Of a DNA stretch of 64,000 bases, positions 1 to 64,000 are shown one piece after another; within the stretch, counting starts at the first letter, position 1; each line of letters begins with the position of its first letter. Position numbers and translations under genes: made by a program. Where the stretch lies: the NCBI GenBank assembly GCA_963969365.1, contig OZ017754.1, positions 2,790,001 through 2,854,000 of the forward strand, read 5' to 3'. The notes beneath the pieces were generated by a model. The model saw only the letters and a list, made by a program, of their open reading frames with translations. It searched no databases and was not told where the DNA came from. The stretch comes from Asterochloris sp. CNOR1 (lineage: Eukaryota; Chlorophyta; Trebouxiophyceae; Trebouxiales; Trebouxiaceae).

Positions 1-2
1 AG

Positions 3-204
3 GGACACGCAGCAGCTTCAAGGAGTAGGGCATGTGGGATGGCTAAGCTTTCCAACCTTCGTCCTCACTGCCGGTTGGGGGCACCAACACTGCTGTCTGA
101 GCAATGCAGCTGCCAACGCAGGCTGTAGCAAAGGCCTCACACAGGAGCACTGCATCACCATCAGAGACACGCAGCAGCTTCCAGAAGGAGGGCATGTGGA
201 TGAC
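3..204. repeat. Tandem copy of the CPSF1 exon 15 donor region
   Basis: The stretch at about 167-204, just past the exon 15 donor in the downstream intron, recurs in diverged form at about 4-40 (shared core GACACGCAGCAGCTTC followed by a GGGCATGTGG block). It lies wholly inside the intron that runs off the left edge and looks like a local tandem duplication rather than coding sequence. Confidence 0.5.
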
Positions 205-217
205 TCACCTCGCTCAC

Positions 218-3200
218 CTTCATCCTCACTGCCAGACAGAAGTACCGCGCTGCCATCTGAGAAATGCAGCAGCACGTAGGGATCCACGATGCAGGCTGCT
301 GCAATGGCCACCTGTGGCCGCCACTCCATGGAGGGCAGGATGTCCTCGATGGGGAAGTGCTGCACCTCTGCAGGCCCATCCAGCAGCTTGATGCCCAGGG
401 CATACACCTGCAGCCCATGCAGGGGGGAAAGGGGCTGAGCAGTGGGTGCGGATAGCATTCATCTGCGCGAGTCCCCTGGATGAAATTGTTGCGCCTAGGT
501 AAGGGGCTGCAAGAGGGGCTCAGGGCGTACACCTGCACCCCATGCAGGAAGGGCTGAGAGATTGGCTCAACAAGCTTTCAGCTACATCAGCTCCATGGTT
601 CTGCGAGATGCCCAGGGCTACACCTGCAGCAAATGGTGGTGTCCAGGGGTTTGTCAGGCTGCATCCTAACCAGGCATGCACCAGACGCTCTGTAGCTGTG
701 CTGTATCAACATGGAAATTATGACATGCCCAGCAGCGTCGTGAACTCAAACGTGACACAGCACCGCTACAGCAGGGTGATGCCCGGGGGATGCACTTGCT
801 GCACGAGGCCTCGTGAGCTTGCCGACTGGCGTCAGTGCATGTCACATGGTGCAAGGCCCAGCAGGCAGCTGGATCTGCACCTGCTGGTTGGGCAGCAGCC
901 TGTTGCTGCCATGCCCTTTGCAAACGGTCCCAGTAAGCTTCCTGGGTCCCCTTGACGCCCTGACCTTGCTTGCCATCTTTGACTCAGGATGCAGGTCATG
1001 CAACACCTGCTCACCTGGACAACGCGGGTGTTCCTGAGGATGTTGGCAGCTGCCAGGGTGGGCGCCGCCGTGACAAAGTCTGAGTCATCCACCTGCTGCA
1101 GCTCGCCCCCAGCAGCCAGGACCTTGGTCTCCCCCGTGCGGGGGCTGCTCAGCAGGAGGTGGCTGTGGTAGGGCCCGCCGGGGCTGGCCAGCTGCATGCC
1201 CGTTTCAGGGCCTGAGAATTGGTGCACCGCCCACACCCCCTCCACACCTGCAGTGCACAGGCAGCAGGTGCTGGCCAGCTGCTTGGTTTTGCTGCGGGGT
1301 GGGTGCCCCCTCCACATTGGCAGGGCAGCACGGCAGCCCTTCCAGGCCAGCTGCATGCCTGTACCAGGGGCATAGGAGTTGAAGTACTGCCCACAGTCCA
1401 AGCACACCTGCAGTGCAGAGAGGCAGCAATCCAGGGGTTCACCTACACGTCTGTGCCGGGCACAGGGACTGGTGTCCCATGCAGGTATGGAGAAATTTTA
1501 TGCACAACCTGCAGTGAACAGGGGCAGAACACCTGAGGCTGGCCGGCTGCATGCCTACAGCTGCATGCTTGTGGGGCAGGTTGATGGGTACCTCGCGTCT
1601 GCTCACGTGTGCAAGCTCAGAGCATGTTGGTCCCGTTCAATGCTCACCTGGAAGGGGCACGGCAACTGCAAGGTCTGGCACCAGCTGCTGCCGCAGCACT
1701 GCAAGGGCTCCCTGCCGCCCATGACCTGCAGGTAGGGGAGCCAGCCTCTGTAGCTGGCAATTTGTGTAGCTGGTCCATGATTTACAGAGCATTCTTGTCA
1801 CAAATCTGTACTCCTAGTTATATACGCTCTAAGATAACCAGAGCAGGGCATCAGCAGATACCCCTGGTTGTTGGCTCAGACAAGTGACAGAGCAGATTAC
1901 AGATTACAGACAGGCAGGTGCTTATGCCAGCTTATTGAAAGCCGCCCCTTGCTGCTCAGGGCTGCAGGCACACACACTAAGACGCGGGACAGACATGATG
2001 TCAGCCTGAACATGCATGTGGCAGGCTCACCAACGGCAGCCACCACCTGCTCAGGCCCACGGGTGGGCTCCTCTGCGGTCGCCTGCGCAGAGCAGGCCAG
2101 CCCAGTAGCCATGGCGTGGACCGGGGCAGTGCTGTCAATCTGGTCTAGCACCTGCACAGCTGAGGCACCATGTCAGGCAGCTGGAGAGACCATGAAATGC
2201 ACTTCAGCCACTCAAGCTGAGCCCATGCCAGAGCAGGCATAGAGTGTGACATCAAGGGCTCAAAAGCACAGGGCAGACGGCTGTATGTAGACAACAATGC
2301 TGTGTCTGGCTCAAAGCACGCAGGACACGCGCCAAGCTGGCTTGTCAGGCCAGCTTTATTGACTGGGCTGGCCAGTCTGCCGCAGCGCGCGAGCGCTTCA
2401 AGCCTGCTGGCACTCTTTGGTATGCAGAAATTACCCACAGGCTTGGAGCTCTGTTCAAAACCTGGCACTGCTTCCAGGGACCTGACATGAAGCACCAAGC
2501 TGTGCAGGAATGCTAGGTGCTGCCGAGTCCTTATCAAAGCAGCTTGATGTGTTTTCATCAAAATCAGCATGAGGCTCTCACCGTGAAGGCGTGCTCCCTG
2601 TCAGCAAAGGGCGCCTGCTGTCTTGCTAGCAGCAGGTCTGCTGCATCCTCCTCATCTGGAGATGGGGTGTTCCAGCGCTGGACTGCGTGGGCAGGTTGCG
2701 CCAGCTTGGGACGCACAGCTGCTTTGTCTCCGCCATCCTGCACCCGCAGAGCGGTGGAATGGGCTCTCTGCCAGGCTCTTGTGCAACCTGACAAGCTGCT
2801 GAAGCTGGCTGTCAAACCCAGCTGGCGCTGGTGCGTATGATGTGGCCCCTCAACATGCGCTGCTTGGTCTGCAGCAGCATGCAGGTACATTGCCACATCC
2901 CCATGTTCCCATGGTCAATCAGAGAGCTTCTCAGACTGCCACATTGCTGCGCTGCCCAGAGATCAACATTCAGCCCTGATGCGCAGTCAGAGAGCAACAC
3001 CCTCGCGCTGTTTGTGTCGCGTGTAGACCCTGACCCTGTACCTTGTGTCGCCGAATGTGCAACATTTGAGAGGAGCCCTGCCATGTCCCTACAAAAACGA
3101 GCTCCCTGTGTAGCCAGGCAACGCAGGATGGCACAGGGGCCACAATGGACGTGTGAACCTGCAGCCATGGCACAGACTCAGCTGCAAAGGAAATCAACAG

Positions 3201-8921: not shown

Positions 8922-9058
8922 TCTGCTCCTCTCTCCCTAGATTATCTAAGTGCTCTCCCCATGAGATTTAGGGTTCCAAGAAGGTCGATCGAGAGAATCT
9001 GAGACCCAGCTCCCAAGGCAACTGGACTACCAGCTCAATTCAAAGAAGTCCTGCGAAG
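8922..9058. promoter_or_regulatory. Short divergent promoter with a telo-box-like motif
   Basis: Only 137 bp separate the CPSF1 start (minus strand) from the start of the small mitochondrial-type gene (plus strand), so promoter and both 5' UTRs must be compact or shared. TTTAGGGTT at 8967-8975 is the reverse complement of the AACCCTAAA telo-box found upstream of many plant housekeeping genes. No clear TATA box was seen. Regulatory use of the motif is inference. Confidence 0.5.
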
Positions 9059-9812: not shown

Positions 9813-10026
9813 TGAGCTGCCAGATGCTGGGGCATATCAAAGTGATGTGCAAGCATTGCCCAAGGATACCTGATATCAGGTATCCTAGGATGTCCCTTGT
9901 CCTCATGAGGATGTCCCTGCTGCAGACATTCTGCGTCAGAATGTGCATCTTGATTCTGCTGACTACCGCTGTGTGTACTGCATGATGCATTGTAGACTCA
10001 TCAGAAGGCCAAACAGCTATGTGTTT
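9813..10026. other. Intergenic / 3' UTR, nothing further seen
   Basis: Between the small plus-strand gene and the converging minus-strand reading frame. It contains a short imperfect inverted repeat (ATACCTGATATCAGGTAT around 9869-9886) but no coding signal that I can support. Confidence 0.4.
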
Positions 10027-26993: not shown

Positions 26994-27114
26994 AACATGG
27001 CTTGAATGACCGAGGTGCAACTCATTCATGACAGGCACAGCAACTCGAAGGCACTGTGTCAGCTGTGTGAAGACAGCGCTGTGGCACAGATTCAGACAGC
27101 AAATTGTTCCTTGC

Positions 27115-33310: not shown

Positions 33311-33312
33311 CT

Positions 33313-42735: not shown

Positions 42736-45700
42736 TCACTTTGTTTGAACGCAAAAGGAGGGAGTGTCAGTGGACGCAGCAGCTGCTCTATGTACACGAC
42801 TTGCACTCTTTGACGGGGTTCTGGAACCTATACAAGTCAGAATCCTGGCCTGCCCGCTGCCTGTGCCGCTTGAGGGGCTGCGTGGCCAGACCCGCCTGGG
42901 GCCGGCGCCCTCTGGGGCCCACTCTGTGCACTGCCAGCCATCTCTGAATTGAAGGTTTTGGCTGCAGCCTGCCCCTGCTGGGCCTGTGTGCCGTAACCTA
43001 TGCCTGCACATCAGTGGCAACACCCTTGGCTGCGTGCACAAACCTGTGGCTGTTTGGTCAGATCCAGAGGCATGCCCCAGAGTATGCCAAAGCAATGGTC
43101 ATCAAATGGGAGTGGAGCAGATGTAATGGGAGCCTCTCAGCAACATGGCAAAGGCTGTTCCACACCAGCTGAAGCATCTTGCCCACATCATCTGGGCAAC
43201 CTCAGTCAGCATTTCAACCACCAATGTGCCCAGCTGCTGGTCTCACCTGCCAGCAGACCTCTGAACCAGGCCTCAAGATTCCTGAAAGATTTGCAATGAC
43301 CTGGATACAGATGAACATGTGTACCCCACCTGCCAGTGCAGCATTGTTGATGTGGGCCTTCGCGGTGTCCTGGGCAGTAAAACATTGTGTTGGCATTGCC
43401 AGTTTGCCTCAACTGCCAGCAACTCAACAGACAAGCACCTTGACTTCACCCACATCTTGGCACAAGTTGATTATGAAGAGAGAGAGAGAGAGATTGACAT
43501 ATGCTTGCCCCACCTGTCAGCACAGTGTCGTCGACCAGGCCTGGCGTGGCGCACTTGTAGCATACCAGGCTGCCAACTACAGTAACATAAGGCCCCCTTG
43601 CAACAGCTGAATTAATAACCACTCAGCAGGCCAGGCTTGCCCTACCTGTCAGAACAGTGTTTTTGACCAGGCCCTTGGCGGTGCGCTTGGCAATGCGCTT
43701 GGCCACTGTACGGACGCCCATGCGGGTCATGTTGTAGTAGGCTGCACTACTTTCAATGGCTGCCGTGGACACATCGCCGGCAGCCTGACGAGCATCAGGG
43801 CCATACCTGCAGGCCAAGGCGCAATGTCAGCTTCCACATGCTGTGCCTGCCCCAGAATGTCCAACCCAAACATCCTTCACGTAAAAGTAGGGATAGTAAG
43901 CACTTTGTCTACAGCCGATGTAGTACCAGTGTGTGGGGTGCGTAGGCGCAGCAGGAGCTTCCCAGGTCTGGTTGCCAAGCATCAGGCCCACAGATGTGCA
44001 GCTTGAAGTTCCACCACTGGTTTGGTATGCTGCAATCTGGCTGCCACATGACGGAGATCCAGCTCTAGATTTGAGCAGTCCAGCTTGCAGAACACCAACA
44101 ATAAGGCGGACTGTGCAGAAGGGAAGGCATGCACCATTGTCCTTTCAGCAGGTGGTCCACGACCCGCAGGGGTGGTTTTCTTCTCCATATGATGGCCCAC
44201 CTGCTACCACCAGCAGGTGGCACCTAGGGTCTGGAGGTGGGGCCTGTCAACCTGGAAAGGCAATATAAACAGCCAGGAAGGCAATTCACTTCCAGTGGGC
44301 CCAGCCCAGGCCGGCTCAAGCAGTGCATCACACATATTTCTTACAATACTAAACCCTGATGCCTCAGGCAGACCTGGACAAAGCAGCACAGACTGCAGCT
44401 TAACCAACCAACAGTTGATTCTGTTGTCACCATGATGAGCACCTTAGCTATCTGTCAGAAGCCAGCAGGTGCTGGGTGAGGACTTCACTGTCCGCCAGAG
44501 GCCAGCAGGTTGCTTGGTGAGCAACTTCAAGTCCACAAGAGGCCCACAGCTGGTGAGCGAGACTGTTGTCTGCCACTGGCAGGTCCTCTGCCTGGCACAA
44601 AACGTCTGGATGCGCCATACTGGAATGCTGGATGCATCATTATACTCACTTTGTGCCCTCAGTGGTGTCACCACTGCTCAGAAGTGCTGTTGCAGTCCCA
44701 CACAGGGTTCCAGGAATGCTCAGCTGTAAGGAAGTGTAGTTGTACCATTGTACTCACTTGTGCCCCACAAAGTCTGCAGTTGTGCTGCCACCGCTCTTCA
44801 TCACCGTCATAGCGCCCGCATACATGCTCTCATAGATCTCTGCTGCCGCCACCACTGATGCAGCTGCAATCTCCTTGGCCGCACTGGTTCTTGTGGGCTT
44901 GGCATCAGACTGTAGCTTTCTGCAGAACAGCACAGATGGCTTGAGCAGGGCTTGTTCAGGGGTGCAGGTTGTTTGCTTGACACTGGCCGATGAGGAGGAC
45001 ATAGTAGCCCGACTCACAAGTAGATACACCTCATAAAATACCAGAGGACAGCAAATGCTGTTGTAGCTGAGTCTGCCTGCAGCGCAGAATCACACCCTGC
45101 AGCCAGGACATAGTCAAGCGCTTGCCCTGCACAAGTCATTTCACTTGAGTCTTTAAGAGTTTACTACTGCTAGGCTGCAGGGACACTTGTGTGTTGGAAC
45201 TTCCTCTCACAGGCAGAGCATGACGGCTCGCCTAGGCTAGCCCATTCAGGTGACTTTCGCACTGTCACACTGCACGCCCCTCAAAGCACAAAGCCAAGGC
45301 AGCAGATGTAAGTTGCCTTCGCCAGTCTGCAGACCAGCTGTTGTGGCGCAAGCACCATGCTCAGTTGGGTATTTTGGTCAGTGCTGCAGCGTCAAATGGC
45401 ACCTTTCCAGGGGAAAGGCCTTGTTTACAAACCATCAATTTGGGAGGAAGTGCCTTGAATGTCTATTCCCAGCAATGAGGGGGATGGCCATTCTTAAGAG
45501 CTGGGTGGGCATGGCCCAACAAGAGGCGGCTGTGCCATGGAGAGATGGCACTCAGAACTGCATGTGTTGCTGCTGCCATCCATGCCTGAACACCATGCAG
45601 CATGAGCGATGCAGAATGTAAAGCAGCCACCCACTGGCCATAGTTTGCTGCCCAGACACTGAACAGCCACCTGCAGACATGCCATGAACGCAAGGCGGTG

Positions 45701-48700
45701 CCAGGTACACAGTTTGCCACTCACTGGCCATAGTTGCTGCCACCCATGCGCCGCACGATGCCGTCTGCCACGCGAATGGACATGTCTGCCACCTGTCCTG
45801 TGACTGTCCCAGACAGGTGGTTCACGCTGTGAGCCACCTGGCGACACTTTTTCAACCTGCAAGTCACAGACACAGTTGAGTATGATGTGTGTGGCTCAGA
45901 GGGAGTGTAATGCAGGCTGCTGCATGTGCTGCGCAGGTGTCAGGGAGGCGGGGCCTCACAAGAGCGGCCTGGCAGCCAGCTCTTGCCATCCAGGGCTGCA
46001 CCAAGGCAGTCTTGGTGCCATCACTTACTAAGGGGGCTCTGCAGGTGCTGGGGGCGTTTTGCAGGTGTGCATACAGCCAAGTGCACATAGCCAGGGGCGT
46101 TACTCACAATGCCTGCGTTCTAGGGTCTATCTTCATGGGCTGCTCGTTGGGCCTCACACGCTCCTGCATTTTCTGTCCTGCCTGGGCGATCTTCTCACTG
46201 GCATACACGGCCCCCACCCCAATGGCTCCTTTGATCTTCTCAGCGCCTGCAGGCACATGTAACGCTGTCAGACAATCACCAGCTAAGCATTGCAAGGGTG
46301 TCCTTCAGGATCCAGGCAGTAATGACGTGCAGAGTTGGATGCAGGCCTGGCATGTGAGCTGCTGGAGGGCCAGCAGGGCTCACAGTTCGGACCTCAGTGT
46401 GCCCCACTGTGGAGTCAACGCGCACAGTATGTGACGTGCGCCTGTCATACCCCCTGTGAGCTGGTCAGTGCACTAAGGTGCTTGCCTGGCATGTGACCAA
46501 CGCCGTCTCATTTGAATAGGCACTGGTGTCACGGCACTCATGGCAGGTCCTGACCTCAGTTTGGTTCAAGCAGAACCACGAGCAGGTGCTGCTGGCAGCA
46601 GGTATGAGGCAGGACCAACTGCAAGCGCTGGCAGCAGCGTCAGTGGAGCAGGCAGAGGTCAGCTAAAGCTCGGCAGGCTCACCCAAGGAGATGCGCCGTG
46701 CAGACGTGGTGCGCCCGTCCGGCTGCTCCCTTTCTGGGGAGCTATCTGCTGAGTCCACTGACGCTGCCCCACCCATTTCAGGTTGCGGCTTCCGAATGAT
46801 ATTCTCATCCTGCAGCCGCCATGTGAGAGTGAGAAAGGGCATGTATGCAGGCTGTGTGTCAATTTTTCTAGTCAGACCGGCAGCATCTGCGTGTGGGCTG
46901 CACCCTCAGACTACATGCTCTGGCAGCCAGGTCAGATGCAGCATCGAAGTGCTATGAACCCCTAAAAGATGTGCTGCATCTGTAACCGCCTCTGGGGTTT
47001 TGCATCAAGCAGGACCTCAGAGCAGCTCAGCCAGCAGGGCTGCTGCTCCGCACCAGACTTTGCAGCGTCATGCATCAGTAGGTAAGCCCCTTGGCCAGAC
47101 CAGTGTGGGCGACAGCAACAAGCAACAAATGCACCACCCCTGCTGCAGTGTCAACAAATTCTCCTGTGCATGAATTCACGCTTGCTGAGGGGTATACAGC
47201 CTCCTTCCCTGCACCTGGCCCTTCAAGCGGTCAGCACGGGGGACTCACTTTCAGCAGAGACTCTGTGATCTCCTCTGTGATGGTGCTGGAGCCGTCATTG
47301 GTGAGCGTGCCCGCTATCTGGTACGAGGTGCACTCCCCGAGAATGCTGGAGAACAGCTGGGCGGTTTCCACAGGCGTGCCTGCGAAAAGACCAGCAGCAG
47401 TAGATGCGCTGAGAGCTGGTCATAGCAGATGTCAAGGCGTGGTGCAACAGGCTCATTTGATACCAAGGAGGGACTGAGTGGAAAAGCTGACTGCCAGGCA
47501 TAGCAAGATTGGAGTGCAGCATGAGGCTCACTCGATGCCAAGAGGACTGAGTAGAAGCACTGGGTGCCAGGCATGGCAAACATGAAGGTGTGGGCGTTCG
47601 CCTGAAGTGTGGGCATCGTCGTCTCCAGGTCCCATGTGATCTTGCCCACCTGCACAGCATGGGGCCAGCAGGGTGAGACAAGCTGCATAGAAGGTGTGGC
47701 CAAGGAGCCTGGAGAATCATATGACGGCAGCAGCTCTGCCCACTGGCCTGTATGGACACTCTGAGTAGCCCTGAGACAGAGCTGGAATTGCAGCAAAGGG
47801 GTCTCCACAATGTTGCTGAGTGCTGCAATCCTTTGCAGAGGGCCACACCTCCAGGGGGATGAAGGCCAGCTGCTGTCTCAAAAAGTCTGTGGACCAGCCA
47901 CAGGGCTCCATGAATGTATGCAAAGCAGGGAGAGGGGCTGCAGCCCTTCCAGGGGGCGACCGGCCCCAGAGGCCTGAGGCCAGCCTCGGGAGAGGACGTT
48001 TTAGCAGGCCTGAGAGGAAGCTTGCTGCCGCGAGCGCAGTGGCCTCCCGCACCATCAGCGGGGGGCCTGTGTGCTGGCGAGCCACTGACCACCCTGCCAA
48101 CCAGATTGGCCGGATTCATGGGGTCGGTGGGCTCACTGAGTGAGGCATGGGCAGGCCAGGTGGAGGTTGCTTTTGTCTTGCAATGGCCCCCTGCAAGGCG
48201 GGGCGGCAGCCACCAGCCTCCCCTCCTTTTCCCCTCCAGAGTTGCAGGCCAGCTCCCAGTTCCTGTGCTATTGACATCACTTGCATCGTCGTCAACCAAC
48301 TGCTCCTGCCCTGCTGTCCCTCACCTGCACTTGCACTTCGCTGGGCTTCCCATTCTTGAGATGCACTGTCAGGGGGCCCCACTCCAGGAGGCTCTCCTGC
48401 TGGCCCTCAACCTGCAGCAGGGCAGTGTGAACGCTGGAAGGCACCAACTCTGACTCAGGAAAAAGGGTGTCGCCCCCACAGCAGCGGCAGCATGGTTGTT
48501 ATCAAACAAGTGAGGCGCATGTGCAGCAGATTTCTCAGCAGGAGGCTTAGCCACCAAAAGGGCCCACAGGCCTCTGTGCTGTTGGAGGGTACCCCGCTCT
48601 CCTGTGCAACATGCCAAGTGGTCTGCACAAGGACTGCCTTGGAGAGCACACTGTCACCTCACCTTGTGCAGCTGCACCTCTGGGATAGACAGCACTATCT

Positions 48701-48913: not shown

Positions 48914-51900
48914 ATGTGGCAGCACAGCATGGACACCTTAGCTGCATGTGCAGTGCCCCGGTGCTTTGCAATAGCTCCCAGAATATGGCCAAGGCATCAT
49001 TCACATAGCTGGAACTGTGCAAAGCGAGGAGCTGCTCAGCTGAACAGAACCAGATGCCAGAATGCAACTACTGCTGTGGATGCCACAGCAGGCAGGTCAT
49101 TGGACAGCATTCCCAGATCTAGGCCTCAGCGCAAGGCTGGCAGCGTGCATCAGGATGAAGTCATCATTGTTGGAGCTGGCATTGCAGGTCTGGCCACAGC
49201 GGCTGCCTGCCAGAAGGTGTGGCATGCAACTGCCTCTGCTGGCTCCACATGGGCAGTAAATGGTGCTGAGCAGCCCATACTAGAGCACGGTCATACGATA
49301 CATCCTGCACACACAGCAGGGGTCACACCAAAGTCCATCAGGGGTGCCTGGAGTCATCCGCTCAGAGGGCGTCTGCCAGGAGGCATGGTGCCAGACATAG
49401 TGCTGCCTGCGGCGGCAGGCAGCCCTCAGCTCAGATCACCTCAACCTGTGACAGCTGACACAGTCGCTTTGTGTGCAGGTGGGCATCCCCTACGTGGTGT
49501 TTGAGCGGGAAGAGGAGCTGCGGGACTCGGGGGGCGCCATTGGCATGTGGACCAATGCCTTCAAGGCCCTGGACGCTTTGGGAGTGGGGGACGCCATCAG
49601 GAGGGACAACTCCCTGCTGACAAAGTGAGGCTGTGCACCTCTGTTTGGAAGCATGATTTCCATGCCCAAGGGCCCTGTGCAGCTCAGTCTCTGTTGTGCC
49701 TGGGGCACTGCAGGCCTGCCCCCTGTCTGCCTGCCTGGTTGAGTTGTGCTCAGCGCACGGAATCGTGCTCAGGGACTTGGCCAGGGCTGTTCCACCTTGC
49801 GCTGGCAGCAGCCTGCTTGTCTGGGGCAGTATCAAGCGTTCCAACAAGGATTGAGAATCAACTTCATGCACCTGGAACAGGATCTGATTTCACTGCCACT
49901 GTGGGAAGCAATTTCCACTTGTATATAATCAACAGAGCAACCATTGATGCCAAAAGAGCTGTCGCTTCTGTCAGAGCGATAACGGCAGGTCTGCAACAGC
50001 ATCCCTGGCTGCCTGCCTGCAGGATTGAGCTGTGCTCAGCGCAAGGGGCTGTGCTCAGGGGCTTTGGCCTGGATGAGTGTGAGGGAGGACCACACGAGTT
50101 CCGTGGCGTCAGCCGGGGAGGCCTGCTGCGCGTGCTTAAGGACCTCCTGCCCGAGGGGACCGTCAAGTACGGCGTGCGCATCGCGAGGGCCTCCACTGAC
50201 ATCAACGGTGAGGCGCTCTGCACTTTCCCTGGGCTGAAGGGAAGCTTCAGCTGCAGTCACAGCCGTAGTGGAACGTAAAAGGACACCGAGCATCCTCTTT
50301 GCCCTGGGGGCTCTGGGATCTCGGTCGCAACTGTCACATCCCGTCTGAAGGGGTGTTACATTCTGCTGCAGGAGGCCTGCTGGAGATGGAAGACGGCACC
50401 AAGCTGCGTGGACGGGTCATCGTGGGCGCGGACGGCGGCCGCAGCAGGGTCGCAGCTGATCTGGGCCTTGCCCAGCCAGGCTACGCAGGCTACAGCGCGT
50501 ACAGGTACGATGCAGCAGCTGCGTTCCAGCGAAGCATTGCACATGTTGCTGTGTGCCTTCCTCTCTTTCAAAGGCAGGTCACCACAGTCTTGGCATGCAA
50601 GAACTGCGTGGGTGGACACCCGTGGGCCGTAGGCACCCGGATGGCATTGCAGAAGCAGAAGTCCAGGCAGCTGCTCTTGTGGAGCCACCAGACTGAGGCA
50701 ACGACCCTTTTCGTGCAGCCAGCAGCCCTGCACTTGCGACTGCGGTGCTTGGAGGTTCCCAGGGTGAGAGTCGCTGAGATGCCTGCTGCAGGGCAGTGGC
50801 AGTGGAGATCTCTGGACCCCTGAAGCTGTCGTCCTCCAGGCCATGCAGGGCTGTGACCGTGCTGTCTTGCATGCTGTCAAGCCCTCAGCTGAGTCACACG
50901 CTGCGTCTGAAGGGGCGTGGCGGTCTTCCCTGAGAACATGGTGCCCATACCCGAAGACACGTGCCGGCAGGTCTGGGGCTCCGGGGTACGCGCGGGCATG
51001 TACCCACTCAACAGCAGGGAGGTCTACTGGTTCACAGTCTTCAACACGTCCCAGGTCAGCACACGGGTCTCAATCTGGTCTGCTGAGCACTGGAGGGTAT
51101 AGACCTGTGGCCCTGTGCTCTTCCACCCGGATTGGCAGGGTCTTTGGCCCCTGACCAGCACAACTCTGCAGCTCTCTGGCAGCTCAACAACAGCTGTGTG
51201 CAGCGTTCAGTGTGCAGTGTGCAGTGTTGACCGCTTTGAGCTCAAGAGTACGGTGTCTGATCAGCTTCCTATGGCCTCATCCCATGGATGGCAGGCCAGT
51301 CTGCAGCGTTTGCTCTGACATGCCACCCTCAATCCTTCAACTCGTGGCTGCACACCTCATTGTTGTTCTCCCTCAGCGTGCTTGCTATTCGCACTGCCCC
51401 ATACTTCGTGAAGCACGCAGGGGAGTTTCTGCACCTCTTGCTGAGTGGCAGTGTGCAAGACAAACTTTGCCTGCACGTGCTACCTCTTGTGCACCCCTGC
51501 TCATGCCTGCAGATGCAGGCTGGCTGCACATTGTGTTGTGCAAGATGCCTCTCCTGTATGCTCACTGCCAACAATGTGGCTGCAGAACTGCCCTCAGATG
51601 AGCCAGGAGGACATGCAGCGCGATGCCATGTCCTATGTGCGGGACTGGAAATTTGGAGTGGCTGAGGCCATCCAGCACACCCCCCTGGGGCGCATCACTC
51701 GCAGCCGCATCACGGACAGGTGGGAGGCCCTGTTGGTGTGCACAGCTGACGTCTTTCAGAGCAGCTGAGGCCATCCTGCACATAGTGTACCATCCGCAGC
51801 TGCGTCACTGACTGGTGGGAGGGAGGACATACGCGGTGGCGGGCGTATTGGTTGTGTATGGCTGATGTCATCTGGAATTGCTGAACCACTCAGCACACAC

Positions 51901-53612
51901 CCGCAGCTGCATCACTGACAGATTTGGATTTTGTTGGTGTACACAACTGACATCAATTGCGGTGGTCGAGGACATCAAGCCAAACCCCCCCAGCGCGCAT
52001 GACCTGCAGCCGCATCACAGACGGGTAACCGGGCAGGGGCTGTGTGTTTGCCGCTGAAACAAGGGACTGCTGTAAGCAGCATGCCAGCTCTGGTGCCCAT
52101 GTCCTGGTGTCCACAGCTGATGTCATGAGGCTGCTGGAGGGAGCATGCCTGTCAGGGGAACAGGTTCTGGGCATGCACAGCTGATGCACAAGGCTGCTGG
52201 AAGCAGCCTGCTAGCTCTGGGGAGCAGGGCGTCACAGTACAGAGCTGGCATCTGGGGCTGCTGGAAGGAGAATGCTAGCTCTTGGGACCAGGCCCTGGTG
52301 TGCATAGCTGATTCACAAGGCTGCTTGAGGGAGCATGCTAACTCCAGGGACCCAGCCCCTATGCGCACAGCTGATGGACAGTGCTGCTGGAAGCAGTATG
52401 CTAGCTCTGGGGAGCAGGACCTGGTGTGCACGGCTATCAAGGAGGGAGCATGCTAGCTCTTGGGAACAGTCCCTGCCTCAGCACCTGCAGTCTGGCAGCA
52501 ACAGGTGGGCTGTGTTGTGGAAGGTACAGCCACAGCACTGGGGAAATGGGGGGCGCCAAGCAGAGGGCCCTGCAGTTGCTTTGTGGGGCCAGTTGGCAGA
52601 CATCACCTGCTGCATTACCTGCACCCTGCTGAGGGCACTGATGCTGAGCCCAGGTGCTGCTCATGCTGCCTGGGGTGTTGAAGATCTTGTGTTCTCGTTG
52701 CTGAGTGCTGTAGGCAAATACTCTGGCATTGAGCATGCAGAGACTTTTGTATCACCGCTTATGTGTGCTGCAGGTGGCCGCTCCCAGGCCAGGCGCTGGG
52801 TAAGGGAGCGCTGACCTTGACTGGCGATGCAGCCCACCCCATGACACCCAACCTTGGGCAGGGTGGTTGCACTGCACTAGAGGTGAGAGCTGCTGATGAG
52901 GGTGTGTATGGAGTGCCGCAGAAGATGTCTCAGCATATGCGCGCACCTGCATTCCAGGTCAAGCATTCCAGGCTAATTCACGCATTCAAAGCTAATGCAA
53001 GCAACTTTGGCCACTGCTTTTCAAGTCCACTGCGTCTGAAGCATAACATGCATCATGAGAAGTCAGTGCATTGGAAGCCAAGCCCTGGCACCATGTGCCT
53101 GCCTTTTGCCCCCAAGGAGCTATCCAACCTCATGGCGGCTTTGTCATGTGCAAATCCTACCTTGAACTGCCTGTCAACCTCGACATACCCCTACTGCCAG
53201 ACGGCAGAGGGCCCTGCACTCTGCCCAGATGGGCTGCAGCCAAAGGGGCAGGTGGCGTAGTGGAAGCACAAAGCCTGGATTGCTCCACCTCACTGCCATG
53301 CAGGATGCCATCGTGTTGGCACGCAACCTTAAGAAGGCCATTGACGAGAGCCAGCCGCCATCAGTCGCTGGCCAGGCGCCCCCTCCCACCCTCCGATCTG
53401 TCCAGATGGAAGGTCTGCAAGAGGCACTGCGGGCCTATGAGACAGAACGCATGATGCGCTGCCTGCCGCTGTCAGTTCGTGCAAACCTGATGGGGCAGGC
53501 ACTGCAGCTCCCCCTTGCCCCAGTCACTGCCTTTCGGAACTTCTTCATCGGAAAAGCCTTCTCCCCAGCCCACTTCCTCAGCCACGCCACATATGACTGT
53601 GGCAAGATCTGA
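48914..53612 (+). CDS. Plastid-type FAD-dependent monooxygenase (CTF2/MO1-like)
   Basis: Eight exons with agreeing phases: 48914-49216, 49479-49624, 50023-50207, 50372-50504, 50913-51054, 51598-51719, 52774-52882 and 53304-53612; 482 residues. The first about 75 residues are rich in Arg, Ser and Ala with few acids, consistent with a plastid transit peptide. Then come the FAD-binding dinucleotide motif EVIIVGAGIAGLATAAACQK, the acid-ended strand VVFERE, the central GADGGRSRVA (DG motif) and the second FAD motif LTLTGDAAHPMTPNLGQGGC. This set defines the flavoprotein hydroxylase family with zeaxanthin epoxidase and plant CTF2/MO1 proteins. No FHA domain follows, which argues against zeaxanthin epoxidase itself. 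The substrate cannot be read from sequence. A start at 48929 (MDTLAACAV) is an equal alternative. The long intron 6 holds copies of the exon 6 end and a minisatellite. Confidence 0.9.
49715..49775. repeat. Pseudo-exon copy of FAD monooxygenase exon 3
   Basis: About 57 bp at 49718-49775 (GCCTGCCTGGTTGAGTTGTG onward) match the acceptor and start of exon 3 (GCCTGCAGGATTGAGCTGTG, about 50013). The acceptor CAG has decayed to TGG in the copy. Confidence 0.7.
51787..52035. repeat. Decoy copies of the FAD monooxygenase exon 6 end
   Basis: The exon 6 3' end CGCAGCCGCATCACGGACAG|GTGGGAGG (about 51701-51727) recurs at about 51794, 51901 and 52006 with increasing divergence. The first copy keeps a TGACTGGTGGGAGG donor-like sequence; together they introduce the minisatellite that follows. 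Confidence 0.75.
52078..52500. repeat. 63-bp intronic minisatellite, seven copies
   Basis: Units begin AGCATGCTAGCTCTGGGG at about 52078, 52142, 52205, 52269, 52332, 52395 and 52447 (spacing 62-64 bp, last 52). Each also carries a GTGTGCACAGCTGATG-type block resembling the intron sequence just past the exon 6 donor (about 51736), so the array appears to have grown from that exon-border duplication. Confidence 0.8.
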
Positions 53613-53899
53613 CCACGCTGCTCCTTCTGCTGGTCGTCCATGTCTTCAGCACTGTTGCAGACTGTGAACTGCAAAGTTTTGGACAGCATCTCCATCTGAA
53701 ACAGCACTGTGACGGAATGTCACCTCTGTCGATCATGTAGCCTGCCATCAGCTCACTGCAGCACAGGTCCTGGCATAGGCAACATCCTGGCAAGCTGCAC
53801 ATGCATGGTTAGGCACCTTTTGCAGGATTGACTGGTCAATCAGCCTTTGTGTCCAGAATCAGCAATCTGTATAGGGCGAGGCCTCATCAAGCTGGCCAG
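53613..53899. other. Spacer between FAD monooxygenase and second BTB gene
   Basis: 287 bp, same strand on both sides. No poly(A) signal or promoter element stands out. Confidence 0.35.
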
Positions 53900-55313: not shown

Positions 55314-56162
55314 AAAGGCCTCAGTGTTTGCTGACGCTGTCGCCAGATGGCTCTGCAGATGCCTGGATTCCATAGACGTTGAGAAGGATTGATGATGTGT
55401 GCAGTGCCCAAGACAGTGCAGCACAAGTCATGGTGTTCTCAGCACTGGCTTGCAACACCTGGGCTGTCCTGCCAAGCCCTGGTAACAGCTGCCATATATG
55501 GTGTCCACTGCCTTGGCAAGAGCTCGCTAGCAGCAGCAGGCAGCAGGTCTGATCCCTGAATGAACAACAGCAAGAGCTTGGCCAGTGGATGCCTGGAATG
55601 CGCTGTCCCTCCCTCCATCCAGCAAGCCAGGCTGTTCTCAAGCGCCTGAGCTCCATGAGCTGTGTTTCAAAGCCTGCTTAGCAGCTCCTAGACTGCATGA
55701 AGAGGCAGGCTGTCCACCTGCAAACATCTGCATGCCTTTTGTTTGGTGCTCATCAAAGCACTGTTGAGCTGGCATTCTTAGTCCACTGTTTGAGTGTCAA
55801 GCAAGGATTGGAAGGCCAGTACTGGATGTAATGTGGTCACCTGGCTGTCTGGTGTAGTCATCTGCCCCTAGAGTTGCTGCTGACATTGTTCCCTTGAAGG
55901 AGGGAACACTGGTCTCATCTGACCAAAGTTTTAGGTCTTAGCTCTTAGGTTCAAACGGTCACAAATCCTATCACATGGATTTCAAGAGAGAGGGGCTATC
56001 AGAAAGAGGAGCTTCTTCGTCATCAGGCATTGAACGCTACTGTCATTTTTGAGAAGTAGTCTGAGATCAGGCTGCAACTTGTCATCGATCAGATGCAGAC
56101 GTGGTCTGCCAAATCCGCTGCACAGCAGCACTCATAGCCAGCGATGGTTGTGAGGAATTGAC
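55314..56162. other. Intergenic region, nothing recognised
   Basis: About 850 bp between the second BTB gene and the golgin-like gene, both rightward. A TGTAA at 55827-55831 is a weak poly(A) candidate for the BTB gene. No coding signal was seen. Confidence 0.4.
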
Positions 56163-59100
56163 ATGAACAAGCTCTGGCAGAATCGGCTGGATGGCCTGCG
56201 CAGCACCATTACCAATGTCAGCGCCCTCTCTGATGGTGCAGCCAGGTCAGCATTCCTCTTCAATCTGCTCTTATATCTGCACCATCATCTGCTCATGGGC
56301 CCAAAACTGAAATTCCACTGCCAAGTCTCTGCTACCTGCAGGCTCCGACAGGGGCTGGCAGCTGATGGCCGTTCAGGCGCGCCTGCATCCCCTGAGGCCA
56401 GCGACAAGCAGCAGTACCTGCGCTTGCCTGTGGAGTCAGCCAAGAAACTGAGGTGGTATGACCGCGCAGACCTCAGCACCCTGGTCATGCAGAACCTGAA
56501 GGACAAGCAGGAGCTGCAGGCTGTGAACGAAGCCCTGCACCAGGTGAGACTCTGCTGACTCCCCGGCGCACAGGCTGAGAGGCGCTCCGTGCTCATGCCG
56601 GCTTGACCTTGTGTGAGGTGCCCCTGCAGCACTCTCTTCTGTCAGTGCATGCACTTGCTGTACCCAGTAGAGGGAGCTGGATAGAGGTGTGATGTGTGTC
56701 CCCTGCACAATGCTTCTTAATTAGTGCATGCAGATGTTGTGTTGGCGCTGCACATGCCAAGACTCCATGCTGGGCAAACACAGGATGGCAGGGGCCAGCT
56801 GCACCGCATGCCCACATACTGCAATTTTACTGCTGATTCTTGCCGGCCCTTGGGAGCCGTGGCTGATCTCCTGAGTCTACAAGCTTGCACTGGGCTGGCA
56901 CCAGAGGCAGCTTGTGACCACCTGCCCGCCGTGCTGGCAGACAACCAACATGCTGTCACGAGTGGTGTCTGCCCACGCCTGCAGCTGTGGGCTTGCATCA
57001 GAGGCAGCTGGTGATGACATGCTGAATATCCTGGCAGGAACTGCCACTTGAGCCCACCCAGGAAGCTCAAGAGCTGCACCCTGCCTGCAGAGTACTGGTC
57101 AGCCAGGGCCTGGCACCAATAGGGACCTACACCTGAGCCCGCCCTGCAATCTCACCCATCAGGCGCTGCCTGTAGGTGCTTGTCAACCAGGGGTTGGCAC
57201 CAGAGGCAGTCGACGAGGAGGTGCAGGCCATGCTGGCAGGCGCCGAGAAGATGCGGTTCTACGATGACTCAGTGAATGCCGTGCTGGTCACTTCAGCCAC
57301 TGCGGAGATCAGCAGCCTGAGGGAGCAGCTCGCAGCCCAGGCTGCCCAGATTGCAGACTTGGGCGCACAGCTAAGGGACATGCAACAGAGGTGAGGCGCA
57401 CTGCTGGGCTGTGCGCATGGTCTGACTTGGTGCTTGGCGCTCTGAGGGCACTGCCAGTGCCAGGCTCAGCTGCTGCCGGTAGCAGAGGCAATGGGCACCA
57501 TGCGTGCCCAGTAATGGCCAGGAATGATTCAGTCACTCTTGGGCTGCTGACCAGGCTTTGAGTGATTGAGCAATACAGCAGGCTGAAAGATCTGTACTTT
57601 GAACATTGAGCGTTGCTTGTGCTTGCAACCCGGTGTTGTGATGCACATAACATGGACTCCTGAAGTTGAGGCTGCAAGCTCTCAGTATGCAGCATCAATT
57701 CGAATTGAGGAGCTGATGTCTTGCCTTGCTGGTCCTGCAGGCTCCCCAAGGCAGCAGCACACCTACACGGCCTCTGCTGCTGCCTACCGCCTGGACTGCA
57801 GCTGTGCGGCTGGGGAACAGTGGCCTAGCTTAGATGATGTGAAATCTTGCTGGCCCCTTGCTGATCCCTTGCTGATCCCTTGCTTTGCTGTGCTGCAGGC
57901 TCCCCTCAGGCAGCAGCACCCCTGCCGTGCCTCCGCTGGCGCCTGCTGCAGTGCCACCAGACGCAGCTTCGCAGCGGCCTTCAGAGCACGTCAGCCTGCG
58001 CCTGACTGTGGCCCCTGAAGGGCATGTGCAGTCAGCTTTTGTGTATGAGCCAGCCAGCACAGGCCAGCTGGACTCCCAGGGGTACTCCTCTGCCCACCAC
58101 AATAGGACGGCGTCCATGGCCAGCCATGACTGGGCCAGCAGCCTCGACGGCGGCCCGGCAGACGCACCAGCAGGTGCGCGCACCTGGCACATCTGTCTGG
58201 GAGTGCTGGGCTGGAGAGCGCATGAAGGACTCAAGAAAACAGATATGTGTGTGGATGCTGGGGTGGGGTTGAATGATGAGACTGCGCAGGCCATCCCTGA
58301 GGATGCAGGCTGTGGTGATGCAGCCCCTGAAGAAAGCAGCAGGCCGCAGTGGGGTAGGCAGCTGAGGGCTTGGAGGAGCTAGCCGACATGCGCCTCGTCA
58401 CGACTTGCAACCCCACCAGCAGCACGCTCTGCATCACCTGCGTCCCTCCCGTGACGCTTAAGAGGCAACCCAGCGGACTGTGGTGCCTGGATACAGGTTG
58501 CGCCTGCAAGGCGCTGCCAACAGCATCCAGCTGTGGTGCTGTGTGCTCTGCAGAGCTGGCAGGGGAGAGGGAGCAGCAGCAGCACCTGGGGACTGCTGCT
58601 GAGGCTCAGGCCCAGGTGCAGCACCTGCAGCAGGAGCTGGCGCAGGCCAAGCGCCAGCTGCATGAGTCTCAGGAGCTGGCTGAGGGGCAACTGCAGGTGG
58701 GCTTCGGCTGTGGGAGCATTGGCTGTGACAAGGCTCTTCACTTGAGAATGTGTGATTGGCCTGCTGCACTTGTTGGAGGAGAGCAAGCCCTGCTCTGCTG
58801 AGGACTGGGAGGGGGCATCTAAGATGTTTCCACGATTGGCCGTCAAGGATCCCTGCTGCCCTGCGTAGGCCTTGCCTGCTGAGAAGAGTGAAAAGTAACC
58901 GTCTGGGACATCATCTGGCTGCATTTGCCTGCATGCTGGTGTCACTAAGCTGGGCTGCCGTGGGCCAGAACTAGCAGGCTCACATCTGTTCTGTTGAACA
59001 ATCGATAAAAGGGTCTTCAACCCATGATAAAGCATCCCTGCACTGCTACAGGAGCTGCGGGGCAGGCTGACTGCCAACGGGGCGCAGCACGTGGAGACGC

Positions 59101-62100
59101 TGCAGCGGGTGCAGGGGATCTGCATGGAGGCTGAGAGGCGGGCCGAGGCAGCAGACAGGTGATAATCCTAACCTTAACCCTGACTTGAAGAGCTCAGGAA
59201 CTGCTTGTGTTGTGGCGCCCCTCAGACTCACGAGCTGGCAGCACAGGCTGTGTGTTGTAGCAAGCAATTGAAGGCAAAGACCATTATGGCTTCACAGCTG
59301 GTAAGGTTGACACTTCTAATCTGGGGGACAGGGGCGCTCCAGCAAGGACCACTTGAGGCAGCGCAAACACCATTGGTGACAAGGATGCGCTGTGCAGTCT
59401 CAGCAAGATTGTGGCAAGAAGCACTGCACCGCCTGGCAGCATGCCACAGGGCTGGAGCTCTTAACAACGTGCTGTATCATAGGGGTCTTGAGACGCAGCT
59501 GGGTGGGTCAGCCATGTGATGCTTCCAGCACTGTTTGGGAGGTAGGGCACAGTAGGCTGCTGTCTGCATGCAGGCGCTGCGCACGTTTGGAGGGGGAGCT
59601 CAAGGACTCCCGCGCAGATGTCCGTCGTGTGGCCAACACCCTCAGAGTGGGTCTGGGGTGTCGCCTGCCCTGCTTGCTTTGCGGAGGGTTCTGTGAGCCC
59701 GCCGTGGTGCTGGGCACTGTCAAGCTCTGCCAGCTGAGACAGTGCAACTTGCCGAGAGGGCCAGCTGGTATGACTGATCTTGCAAAGTTTGCAGTTCGCG
59801 GGAAAGACCTCGCGCTGCACTTGTTGGAGACAGTCCTGCATGCAGCAGGCATGCCAAAGACAAGCATGCTGCTTCCCTTGACGCCAACCCCGATAGCAAC
59901 TTTTCTGCTTGTGGCCCAGCTGCCACAAATTTTGGAGGCTACTGCCAAATGCATAAGTATGCACCTCAGCACCGCTTCTGGATGACCCTGCAGCCAGCTC
60001 AGACATACCTCCCTTGACAGGTATACGACAGCAGTCAAGTCAATCTAATCTTTGTATTAATTTTTGGTATATTTATGTATGCAACCAACCTGGCTGCGGC
60101 CAGAAGTGTCAGCCCTGCCGCAGTGCCTGTTGTAGTCCTTTGAGCAGGAGCAGCTGGCCTGGCGGCCACTTCGACTGCTGCTCAGATGATCCCACAGCTC
60201 AGCTGCAGTGCCCTGCTGCAGGGCTTGGAGCAGGAGAGGGACAAGGCGCAGGGGCGTGCGCAGTCTGCTGAGGCAGCTCTTGCTGAGGCAGTCAGCAAGG
60301 GGCAGGTGCACGCCGACAAGGTCGTGGCCGCCGCCGGTGCCCTTGCCGTTGCCAGAAAGCAAGGTAATAGTCACATTGCTTTCCTGTTGACCTGCCTGCT
60401 TTCCCCTGCTACATTCTCAAACAACAGGGTGGCTGGAAGCCTTGTCCCGCCTCTGGGTCCGCTGGATGTCCTGCAGCTGGAAGCAGTGTTTTTTCTTTTT
60501 GGCATTGCAACTGACTTAATGCATCATACCCCATCAGCTGGCGCTTGGTCATTGCAATGGTACGCCAAGGCGTGATGTGCAGAGCCAAGAAGCAGGGTCT
60601 TGCACATTGCGGGCCGCTTCTCAACAAGTCTCCACCCAAGAAGTCAGGTTTGTAAGCTGATGCTGCAGCTGAGAGAACTGAAGCTGACTTTGCACAGTGC
60701 CAACTCCCGCAGGCTCTGCACCAACTGCTAGCAGCTGAATCATAGCTGCCCATGCTGCAGCTGAGGATCGTGAGGCTGAGCTGCGGAGGGCCATGCGGGA
60801 CGGCGAGGCCCGCCTGAGGGAGCGCGTGGCCCAGCTGGAGGCAGACAATGTCTCCCTGCGCAGGTGGGTACGCCCCTGTGTGTTGCTTGCTGGTTCTGAT
60901 TGGCAGCAGGGCGACACCTCAACAGAGGTGTAGGCCACAAGCACTGCCCCTGTGTGTTGCTTGCTGGTGTTGATTGGCGGCAGGCGACACCTCAACAGAG
61001 GTGCAGGCCACAAGCACTGCCCCTGTGTGTTTTCTGGCTGGTTCTGATTGGCAGCAGGCGGCACCTCAACAGAGGTGCAGGCCACAAGCACTGCCATGCC
61101 CAGGTGGGTTTGTGCATCTCGAGCCTGCATGCAGTTCAAGGCAGCAGGGCAGGAAGATTCTCCCCGCAGTGTGCATTCGCTGAGGCCGACTTGGTCCTCT
61201 GCAAAGATGGGGCATGAATGCCTGCCTGACTGTGGCAGCTTTGACATGCAGTGCAAGCTCTCCTACTTGACCTAGGGCAAAACCCTACAGCAGTCAGCCC
61301 ACAATGCTTTGCCGGCTTTGAGGCATGTGGTGCACCTTTGGTATACAGGCTCTGACTGGTTCAAGCATGTACAGGTCTGTGGCGTCCGGAGCCTCAGAGA
61401 CACAGGGGGTGCTGGCGCGGCTTGTAGCTGCTGAGGAGGCAGAGGCGCGAGCCCTCCGGGAGCTGCGCGATGCAGAAGCGGCAGTGGTGGACAGGTCAGG
61501 CGGCAGTGGATGCCGCTGGTGTGGTGATGCAGCTGCTGAGGCATCAGAGCGTGACCTGATGGCCTGCACCACAACACACGGCAGAAGCATTGTGCTATGT
61601 GGGCCTGCCAGTCTTCTTGAGCAGGCTGCTGTCTCAGCTCATGGGGTCCCTTTATTGCAGAGCGGGCTGCTGTCTCAGTTCATGGGTTCCTGCCATTGCA
61701 GAGCAGGCTGCTGTCTCAGCTCATGGGTTCCTGCCATTGCAGAGCAGGCTGCTGTCTCAGCTCATGGGTTCATGTCATTGCTGTGCAGAAAGGACCTCAC
61801 CACGCGCTTGGCAGTGCTGGAAGACAGACTGGCGGAGAGCAGGGCAGAGCAGGGGCAGCTGCAGACTTACAAGCAGGTCAGCTGGGCCCTGCACCAAGCT
61901 GCAGCCTGCAATGCCATCCCCCTGCAAGAGCGTGACAGGCCGGGTGGTCACCAGACAATGCAACGCTGACTCACCGACCCTTTCAAAGCGTTCATCAGAA
62001 GGCAGGCCTGTGTTGTGCTGACTCCTTTGCTGGACTATTGCTGGCAGCTTATGCAGATCCGCACAGACTACAATTGCCTCCTGCCGCACTGTGCAAGCTG

Positions 62101-64000
62101 TGCACTTGCTGCAGGCCTTGGCATTCAGCAGTGATACTCTCCAAGCTGTGCACAAGACACAGGCCTTAGCATTCAGCAATAACACTGTCCAAATTCTGCG
62201 TGAAACACAGCGCTTGGCATTCGGCATTACCACTGTTTGTGCACATGCCACAGAGCTGGGCATCCAGCATACTGTTAGATGAAGCCTGCATTGTCGTCAA
62301 CTCTGGTCCATGCACCTGCAGCTGGCAAGGGAACTGGAGGCTGCCAAGGCGCGAGTGGAGGAGGAAGTGCTGGCCACGGTCCACATCGCGACTGGCCTTG
62401 AGACGCGGCTGCGGGCAGCAAAGGACGACGCTGAGGCTGCCCAGGAAGCTGCTGTTCTGGCCCAGCAGAAGGCCCAGCAGGTGCTTGCTGCACATGCCAA
62501 CAGATGTTCTTTTGCTGCTGTCATCCACAGCATGCATGCATGCATCTGGCGTGAGCATTTGTGGTGGCACTGCTCGAGGGCTGCTTGCACTCTGCAGCCC
62601 TGATGGACCACCTTCATCTGATGCATTGCTGGGGCATGGTAATTGCAGGCGGAGCGTGAGGTCACAGCAGAGGTGCAGCGGCGGCTTGAGGCTATGGGGG
62701 ACGACAGGACCCAGTGGCCGCCGGCTGCCAGGGACGAGTGCATGCGCATGGACCGCAAGCAGCAGGTGAAGCAGCCTCTTGGCGCATGGGCTTGGCAGGG
62801 TTAAAGAAGCCGCTGGCATGCCCGGGCATGTAGCACCAACTTTGACCCTAGAATAGGTACACACTGAATGCTGCACGTGCTGCTCACCTGTTACCCTGTT
62901 TTGTAGCTATACAAGGACTGGCGCTGCGCACTTGCAGCAACCCACCCCAAAGTGGCACCAAATGCACCTTGCATCAAACATCAAAGGAGGTCCTTTGCGT
63001 GTTGGTCTGTGCAGCAGGTGTCTTGCTCACTGGGCCGCCCACCCCCTCAGCAGCAACCTGCCTGCAGGCTGTAGTCATGACGTGGGCTGCTGGCCTGCTC
63101 AGGGATGCATGGCTCCATAGTCCTGCATTCCATCAGGCTAGTTTCTGCCTCAGCAGCGGCCTCATATCATTCATCTTGGGGTCGCACAACACCCGGAGGG
63201 CAGTGGCCTGCCTGACCAATGCGACCTTGAGGAATCTTGATCCCCTTGAGCTGACTGCCTGCGCATGCAGGGCCTGCGCGCCATGTTGGCTGCCCTGCAG
63301 CAAGACCTGGACACAGAGGTAGCCCACAGGGATAGCGATGCAGCCACAAAGGCCGCGCTGCAGCAGAGGGCAGCTGCCGCTGAGGAGAGGGCTGATCGCG
63401 CTGAGCGGGAACGCAGCCAGGGTACCAGCAGCCTGCAGAATCTGGTGGGTCAAGCTGCAAAGGTTGTGTGTGGATATACATATGTGAGGGAATGGCAGCA
63501 ACAAGCTTTCGTCAACCGGAAAGATGACTGATGTGCAAGTCTTGCATCACCCTGACAGTATTGTTATTGTAGCTGGTGTGCATGGGTTTTGGCACCACCC
63601 TGACAGCTGCCAGGTTTGTGGTTCATGTGCTTGCTTGTGTCTTGGCACCACCCTGATGATGATATTCTTGTAGCTGCTGTCCATGCATCTTGGCACCACC
63701 CTGACAACTCTTGACTCAATGTCGCTGAGCCTCTGACCCTTGCCAAAGCGCTGCATGCGCGACCACATGTTGCTTGCACGAGCGCTGGCGCAGGACCCCA
63801 AGCACTGCCTGCGCACCCATGGGCACTGGAGTCCCGCCGTGACCACTGCAGGTGGCCACACTGCGAGAGCAGCTTGAGCAGCTGCGGCGAGACGCTGCAG
63901 CGGCAGAGGAGGAGCGGGACAAGCTGCTTGTGCTGTCACAACGCACTCCCTTTGGCCATTCCAGACCTGGGCAGGAGACCCCCACAATGAGAGGCAGTGG
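56163..64000 (+). CDS. Golgin-like long coiled-coil protein, 5' part
   Basis: Fifteen exons with agreeing phases to the right edge: 56163-56245, 56342-56543, 57176-57390, 57899-58173, 58554-58696, 59052-59158, 59574-59646, 60222-60363, 60761-60863, 61375-61494, 61789-61876, 62322-62480, 62649-62765, 63271-63444 and 63852-64000 (open); about 716 residues so far. The start is MNKLWQNRLDGLRSTITNV, then a Ser/Pro/Ala-rich stretch around residues 165-260, then almost continuous heptad-type coiled coil (QVQHLQQELAQAKRQLHESQ, ELRRAMRDGEARLRERVAQL, LAVLEDRLAESRAEQGQL, REQLEQLRRDAAAAEEERD). Overall layout resembles plant and algal golgins or GRIP-related tethers, but the diagnostic C terminus lies outside the window, so a ciliary or cytoskeletal coiled-coil protein is also possible. 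Introns carry several tandem repeats derived from exon borders. Confidence 0.75.
56885..57125. repeat. Copies of the golgin-like exon 3 start
   Basis: The start of exon 3 (TTGGCACCAGAGGCAGTCGAC onward, about 57192) is preceded in intron 2 by diverged copies at about 56893-56945, 56990-57040 and 57103-57120, each keeping [CT]TGGCACCAGAGGCAG-like sequence and, in the first two, a following CTGGCAG block. Confidence 0.65.
57730..57790. repeat. Copy of the golgin-like exon 4 acceptor
   Basis: CTGCAGGCTCCCCAAGGCAG at about 57735, continuing into CAGCACACCTACACGGCCTC, duplicates the true exon 4 start (CTGCAGGCTCCCCTCAGGCA, about 57893, continuing CAGCACCCCTGCCGTGCCTC). The decoy keeps a good acceptor. 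Confidence 0.7.
60870..61100. repeat. 74-bp tandem repeat, three copies
   Basis: Units of about 74 bp with CTGATTGGCAGCAG, then CACCTCAACAGAGGTG, then AGGCCACAAGCACTGCC start near 60896, 60971 and 61045. They begin just past the exon 9 donor; CACCTCAACAGAGGTG contains a short palindrome. Confidence 0.85.
61617..61788. repeat. 41-bp repeat of the exon 11 acceptor, four copies
   Basis: GCAGGCTGCTGTCTCAGCTC followed by ATGGGTTCCTGCCATTGCAGA occurs at 61621, 61662, 61703 and 61744, an exact 41-bp period. Each unit ends in an acceptor-like TTGCAG or GTGCAG, and the last one leads into the true exon 11 acceptor at 61788. Confidence 0.9.
62085..62245. repeat. 51-bp tandem repeat, three copies
   Basis: Three 51-bp units containing [CT]TTGGCATTC[AG]GCA (about 62116, 62167 and 62214) preceded by CTGTGCACAAGACACAGGCC-like sequence. 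Because 51 is a multiple of three, the plus strand reads as a 17-residue repeat (QALAFS core), but splice phases do not place it in the gene. Confidence 0.7.
63540..63715. repeat. Tandem repeats in the last visible intron
   Basis: TTGGCACCACCCTGA recurs at about 63588, 63642 and 63690, with TATT[CG]TTGTAGCTG at two places between them; units are about 50 bp and imperfect. No coding role is seen. Confidence 0.65.

Follow-up and report, generated by a model that had tools for sequence, protein, structure and literature searches.

Decayed copies of exon borders in the introns of a green alga and their probable origin in ordinary small tandem duplication

The window, a stretch of 64,000 nucleotides (OZ017754.1 2790001-2854000), lies inside the 56.4-Mb genome of Asterochloris sp. 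CNOR1, which comprises 21 contigs. Two of its genes were matched to homologous proteins, namely CPSF1, with Trebouxia and Myrmecia as nearest relatives (39-43% identity), and IFT46, with Myrmecia bisecta and Trebouxia as nearest named relatives (47-50% identity) and an unnamed protein as the best match overall (51%); these relatives point to a trebouxiophycean green alga. The window and 200 kb of its flanks formed a main data set of 264 contiguous kb, and 10-kb samples from five other contigs formed a second data set of 50 kb. A self-trained gene finder run on the 264 kb predicted 471 introns with a median length of about 250 bp, a donor consensus of CAG/GTGAGC and an acceptor consensus of CTGCAG/G (the slash marks the border), so that CAG/G is common to both sides of the intron. 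Homologous IFT46 and CPSF1 proteins independently placed 28 introns, kept from 29 candidates (one overlapped another) and supported by one to seven homologs each. The gene finder was exact for only 14 of these 28, and the border-match, junction-profile and junction-coverage tests therefore rest on approximate borders. Five predicted introns of one gene in the flank (window coordinates -91571 to -90864) are probably a 99-bp array misread as introns; they were dropped for the junction-coverage, donor-acceptor and short-intron tests (367 → 362 introns) and are still included in the border-match (224 introns), class-coverage and junction-profile counts. Also in the flank, three predicted genes, two of them with equal score, follow one another at intervals of exactly 6,873 bp (at 120172, 127045, and 133918 in window coordinates) and probably form a tandem gene cluster near the contig end. 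Repeats with periods of 81 and 90/180, all multiples of three, occupy 14635-15013 and 15955-16341, mostly in the predicted exons of one long gene, and are probably in-frame coding repeats.

The original prediction, made from the window alone, had listed eleven places as intronic copies of neighboring exon borders. These places, the functional regions from which two of them were copied and one related array are as follows:

1186..1266, minus strand: functional CPSF1 acceptor region, source of the copy; the exon begins GVEGVWAVHQ (tblastn, Trebouxia and Myrmecia CPSF1)
1345..1428, minus strand: decayed copy, within the intron, of the CPSF1 exon start and its 3' splice site; source 1186-1266, about 160 bp away
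24859..24898, plus strand: decayed copy, within the intron, of the IFT46 exon start and its 3' splice site; source 24951-24990
24951..24990, plus strand: functional IFT46 acceptor region, source of the copy (homologs)
34091..34211, minus strand: two tandem copies of about 60 bp spanning the predicted acceptor 34136 (TRF 34092-34211, period 59, and gapped scan)
34731..34865, minus strand: short-period copies, three by eye, of the predicted donor near 34838 (34860-34820 aligns with 34806-34766)
40115..40137, plus strand: intronic copy of the predicted acceptor and exon start 40168-40190 (predicted model)
43503..43552, minus strand: copy of 43635-43686, a segment lying across a predicted donor (weak gene model, score 8.3)
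47449..47579, plus strand: repeat with 75-bp spacing (47449-47506 and 47524-47579) without a supported exon border
49721..49774, plus strand: intronic copy of a predicted gene's acceptor and exon start 50003-50060 (predicted model)
51794..52030, plus strand: about three decayed copies, counted by eye, of the exon end and donor predicted at 51658-51721
52067..52435, plus strand: diverged tandem array, 63 bp x 5.8, taken as the same process
57735..57785, plus strand: intronic copy of the acceptor and exon start 57893-57944 (predicted model)
61621..61788, plus strand: intron-internal array, 41 bp x 4.1, that runs up to a predicted acceptor and does not copy an exon border

All eleven places hold a diverged local direct repeat and nine include an exon border, the exceptions being 47446-47506 and 61621-61788; inspection by eye shows nothing in common between the unit of the latter and the exon edge beyond the TGCAG of the 3' splice site. 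The partner lies outside the listed interval for eight of the eleven, and 61621-61788 repeats inside itself. Neither 34075-34205 nor 34731-34865 has an outside partner or an ungapped internal shift, and a gapped scan finds two copies inside each. At 51794-52030, the segment 51962-52026 aligns with 51658-51721, the predicted exon end and donor. Two of the nine border copies have homolog-placed borders and seven rest on predicted models. For CPSF1, the copied border is the acceptor at 1247 of the homolog-supported intron 1647-1247, and for IFT46, it is the acceptor at 24962 of intron 24479-24962, which is backed by seven homologs.

Copies of this kind are not confined to the listed places. In the border-match test, the last or first 60 exon bases were scored against their own intron for 224 of the 471 predicted introns, namely those at least 80 bp long that lie between exons of at least 40 bp each in genes scoring at least 50, and matches of at least 30 were found for 5.8% of upstream and 10.3% of downstream exons in the 264 kb. 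The corresponding values were 0.2% and 0.2% for borders of other genes (1120 pairs each), 0.3% and 0.0% for dinucleotide-shuffled introns (1120 each), and 0.0% and 0.2% for non-adjacent borders within the same gene (880 each). At a score of at least 36, own-border matches remained in 4.0% and 6.2% of the 224 introns, and every control fell to 0.000. Self-alignment compared with shuffled and non-adjacent pairs had been proposed earlier as a test that could refute the observation; it was run, the similarity exceeded these controls, and the observation stands. Where borders were placed by homologs (50 exon bases against the intron, score ≥28), a copy was found in 11 of 28 introns versus 4 of 1512 mismatched pairs, with all 11 positives in CPSF1 (11/22) and none in IFT46 (0/6). 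The listed CPSF1 and IFT46 places are absent from these positives because the test used 50 exonic bases: with splice-site flanks they score 65 and 35, and from the exonic part alone only 23. On the other contigs, a copy was present in 6 of 29 introns (three upstream, three downstream) versus 0 of 290 controls per border. Local tandem duplication followed by decay is supported for many genes and on other contigs. The earlier figure of one to four copies per intron is on the high side, since 35 of 39 copied junctions have one hidden copy and 4 of 39 have two, and three can be made out by eye at 51794-52030 and 34731-34865. Decayed exon-border copies inside introns are real and common in this genome, where they occur in about a tenth of introns (38/362) or more.

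The copies belong to a wider population of local direct duplications. A gene-blind scan of the 264 kb found 199 local pairs (score ≥40, within about 800 bp) versus 2 and 1 at two controls with larger offsets, and an order-5 Markov null gave 0 local pairs in 100 kb; these counts were taken from chunked alignment because BLAST self-comparison misses close pairs. At a score of at least 36, 172 direct rows lie less than 500 bp apart, compared with 2 inverted rows at 50-500 bp, while a further 19 inverted rows less than 50 bp apart are palindrome-like and only 4 direct and 4 inverted rows lie 500-2000 bp apart. Some dispersed repeats are present too. At the same score, 63 direct rows and 162 inverted ones are separated by more than 5 kb, a distance class in which far more pairs are compared. 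The spacing of the best pair per cluster has quartiles of 89, 124.5, and 167 bp. Of the 30 rows with an identity of at least 0.9, 7 abut with a gap of -4 to +2 bp and another 7 are artefacts of self-alignment (recognized by a gap equal to minus the row length, and ignored). The others are spaced or overlapping, and by eye one spaced case is a multi-copy array whose unit measures about 55 bp; many young pairs are thus spaced rather than abutting. Identity was recomputed from unmerged pairs.

In the 264 kb, local duplication covers 12.3% of intronic sequence, 11.0% of CDS, and 4.8% of everything else (control ≤0.3%), with values of 15.9, 15.7, and 4.7% within the window. In the 50 kb of other contigs, coverage is 7.9% in CDS, 6.4% in introns, and 6.1% in the rest, and one of the five 10-kb samples is without any local duplication. 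The original prediction placed the process across exon-intron junctions, and a process aimed at junctions was not supported: duplications cover 29 of 362 donors (8.0%), 41 of 362 acceptors (11.3%), and 98 of 1080 random intron points (9.1%), with overlapping intervals, and no coverage peak at junctions was seen in the 264 kb with predicted borders. As random intron points are covered as often as donors and acceptors, the process is not aimed at junctions; it acts throughout introns and merely reaches coding sequence at the exon edge. Slower change at the exon edge than in the intron should, in addition, keep copies of the edge recognizable for longer.

Coding sequence is not consistently poor in duplications, and the evidence that selection removes coding duplications is mixed for this reason. 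Coverage is 11-15% at the junction, falls to 4-7% at 60-120 bp into the exon, and is 9-14% at 120-160 bp, a distance reached by long exons only. For random points placed in exons at over 60 bp from either end, the count of covered points is 13 of 432. In-frame coding repeats and misplaced borders probably contribute to the coverage of CDS. For the hidden border copies themselves, the spacing is a multiple of three in 14 of 41 and so has no preference for that phase, giving no sign that hidden copies are read as coding sequence.

The decay of the copies carries a further signature. Over 39 copied exon edges, mismatches rise from codon position 1 to position 3 (52/445, 71/449, and 88/452, or 0.117, 0.158, and 0.195; p=0.013). 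Such a rise would follow if change in the exon fell mostly on third positions while the intronic copy mutated at all three. This pattern fits a functional exon held by selection while its intronic copy changed freely. The two members of a pair are also more alike in their exonic parts (identity 0.85) than in their intronic parts (0.81-0.82), which is the expected direction, although as a clock test the difference is weak.

Taken with a rough probability of 80%, the preferred reading is that ordinary small tandem duplication, filtered by selection on the protein, lengthens introns and leaves spare splice sites in them. It is built on the findings that local direct duplications far outnumber those in controls, that introns and junctions are covered evenly, that hidden copies have no preference for multiples of three, and that decay follows codon position. 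Small tandem duplications, with a spacing mostly of 50-250 bp, would arise widely in the genome, and those that change the protein would mostly be removed by selection, while those in introns and across exon-intron borders would be kept. When a duplication crosses a splice site, the gene would go on using the copy beside the intact exon and the protein would be unchanged. The intron would lengthen by a unit and harbor a redundant exon edge, splice site included, that is free to mutate. Spare splice sites of this kind are presumably seldom used. As to the molecular origin, end-joining repair of staggered breaks or of paired nicks with fill-in, or else replication slippage, appears most plausible. 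Several observations count against the preferred reading: the homolog-placed positives all lie in CPSF1, the predicted borders are approximate, CDS is not consistently poor in duplications, one of the five 10-kb samples has none, and many young pairs are spaced. In addition, local duplication is denser in introns than in non-genic DNA in 7 of 8 blocks of the 264 kb on this contig, an excess which plain genome-wide duplication does not explain.

A possible but rather doubtful variant is that the lineage underwent a burst of small tandem duplication, perhaps favored in transcribed introns, as a main route of intron growth. Best-pair identity is 80-90% in 62 of 102 clusters and 90-100% in 27 of 102 (p=0.0003), a differently built set of 129 loci has 82 at 80-90% versus 24 at 90-100%, and the 38 clusters without coding bases have 22 versus 10 (p=0.05). 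A past burst is hinted at by this shortage of young pairs, since under a constant rate young pairs should be no fewer than older ones. The intron excess on this contig points the same way but was not repeated in the 50 kb elsewhere (6.4% versus 6.1%). If a burst did occur, about a tenth of introns (38/362) or more would hold datable fossil exon borders, most of them with an intact splice site.

It appears unlikely that the border copies were selected for, as decoy or alternative splice sites that regulate splicing. Of 41 copies, 33 retain an unaltered splice dinucleotide and 2 of the other 8 have one base of it unaligned, and per-base identity is 0.91-0.94 at the dinucleotide compared with 0.81-0.85 around it, both of which would suit such a role. 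However, the alignments had to span the splice site, which favors intact sites, and the copies have neither an excess at junctions nor a frame preference. Acceptor-like CTGCAG words also stand inside 165 of 362 introns anyway, at a density of 1.7-1.9 per kb in the last 40 bp before the acceptor and of 2.1-4.0 per kb in most bins 40-280 bp upstream. With the same reservation about the alignments, the 33 intact dinucleotides of 41 also mean that there is no clear sign of selection against spare sites.

The original prediction had also raised the possibility that introns were created by tandem duplication of exonic segments containing AG/GT (the Rogers model), and this is very unlikely for the introns of the 264 kb. 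An intron formed in this way should have donor and acceptor regions that resemble each other. The CAG/G common to both sides of the splice consensus agrees with this route, and donor and acceptor regions are alike (score ≥24) in 2 of 69 short predicted introns (<130 bp) versus 0 of 690 controls; of these two doubtful cases, one is a 51-bp repeat that is by eye open in frame and probably coding, and the other is marginal at a score of 25. None of the 293 introns of at least 130 bp reaches a score of 24, the best being 21 with controls up to 23, in an ungapped comparison at five shifts that could miss old or indel-rich cases. The claim is thus left almost unsupported. As own pairs in these longer introns score like mismatched ones, the process is read as intron lengthening and not as intron gain: duplication makes existing introns longer, with no clear sign that it makes new ones.

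Mobile introns (introners), or dispersed repeats of one family that inserted close to exon borders, would account for the many genes affected, and dispersed matches more than 5 kb apart (63 direct, 162 inverted) do occur, yet this origin is highly improbable because the excess is local, with 172 direct rows below 500 bp and then 4 at 500-2000 bp. All three units compared with the whole genome were unique to their own locus: the border copies 1345-1428 and 57735-57785 matched only themselves and their neighbor with no third place, and the array at 61621-61788 matched nothing beyond itself, in a search that can miss common words. Chance similarity from a biased vocabulary, suggested by a genome in which CTGCAG, also the 3' splice consensus, reaches 3.45 per kb in the 264 kb against an expected 0.31 from base composition (11-fold) and 1.99 from dinucleotides (1.7-fold), can be practically discarded, as it is refuted by controls of the same vocabulary (0-0.3% of introns, 4/1512 pairs, and 0 pairs in the Markov null).

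Exon borders serve as slowly changing references from which the age of a duplication can be read, which makes this genome a natural test of intron lengthening, of the tolerance of spare splice sites, and of the rarity of intron creation by tandem duplication. It also carries a warning for gene finders, which may choose the wrong copy when they set a border: the one used here failed to reproduce 14 of the 28 homolog-placed introns exactly. In a limited literature search of titles and abstract openings, no description of decayed exon-border copies in introns of this lineage was found, and within the reach of that search, the density and regular fate of border-spanning duplications in one genome look new.

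Minisatellites occur in introns, and the arrays at 61621-61788 and 52067-52435 resemble them in being ordinary short arrays. The border copies differ from intronic minisatellites, as only one hidden copy was detected at 35 of 39 copied junctions, with no array. Small tandem duplications that arise from end-joining repair have reportedly been described by Schiml et al. in 2016 and by Vaughn and Bennetzen in 2014. Similar duplications are described at induced breaks in mouse and human cells in a later study (Schimmel et al., 2021; PMC8355091). The present duplications are like these in being short, direct, and limited to one locus, and 7 young pair rows abut with almost no spacer, whereas the cases in that study are fresh products of induced breaks and those reported here are old, decayed copies in an alga, for which the repair pathway is only putative. 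Intron gain by tandem duplication has also been described (Lehmann et al., 2010, PMC2891723; PMC4974935), and the duplicated sequence carries splice signals there as it does here. The outcome is different in this genome, where introns were lengthened and donor-acceptor likeness was found in 0 of the 293 longer introns. The closest match to the present case is mentioned in one of these same papers, where an 83-bp duplication inside an intron left the gene structure unchanged (Ma et al., 2016; PMC4974935).
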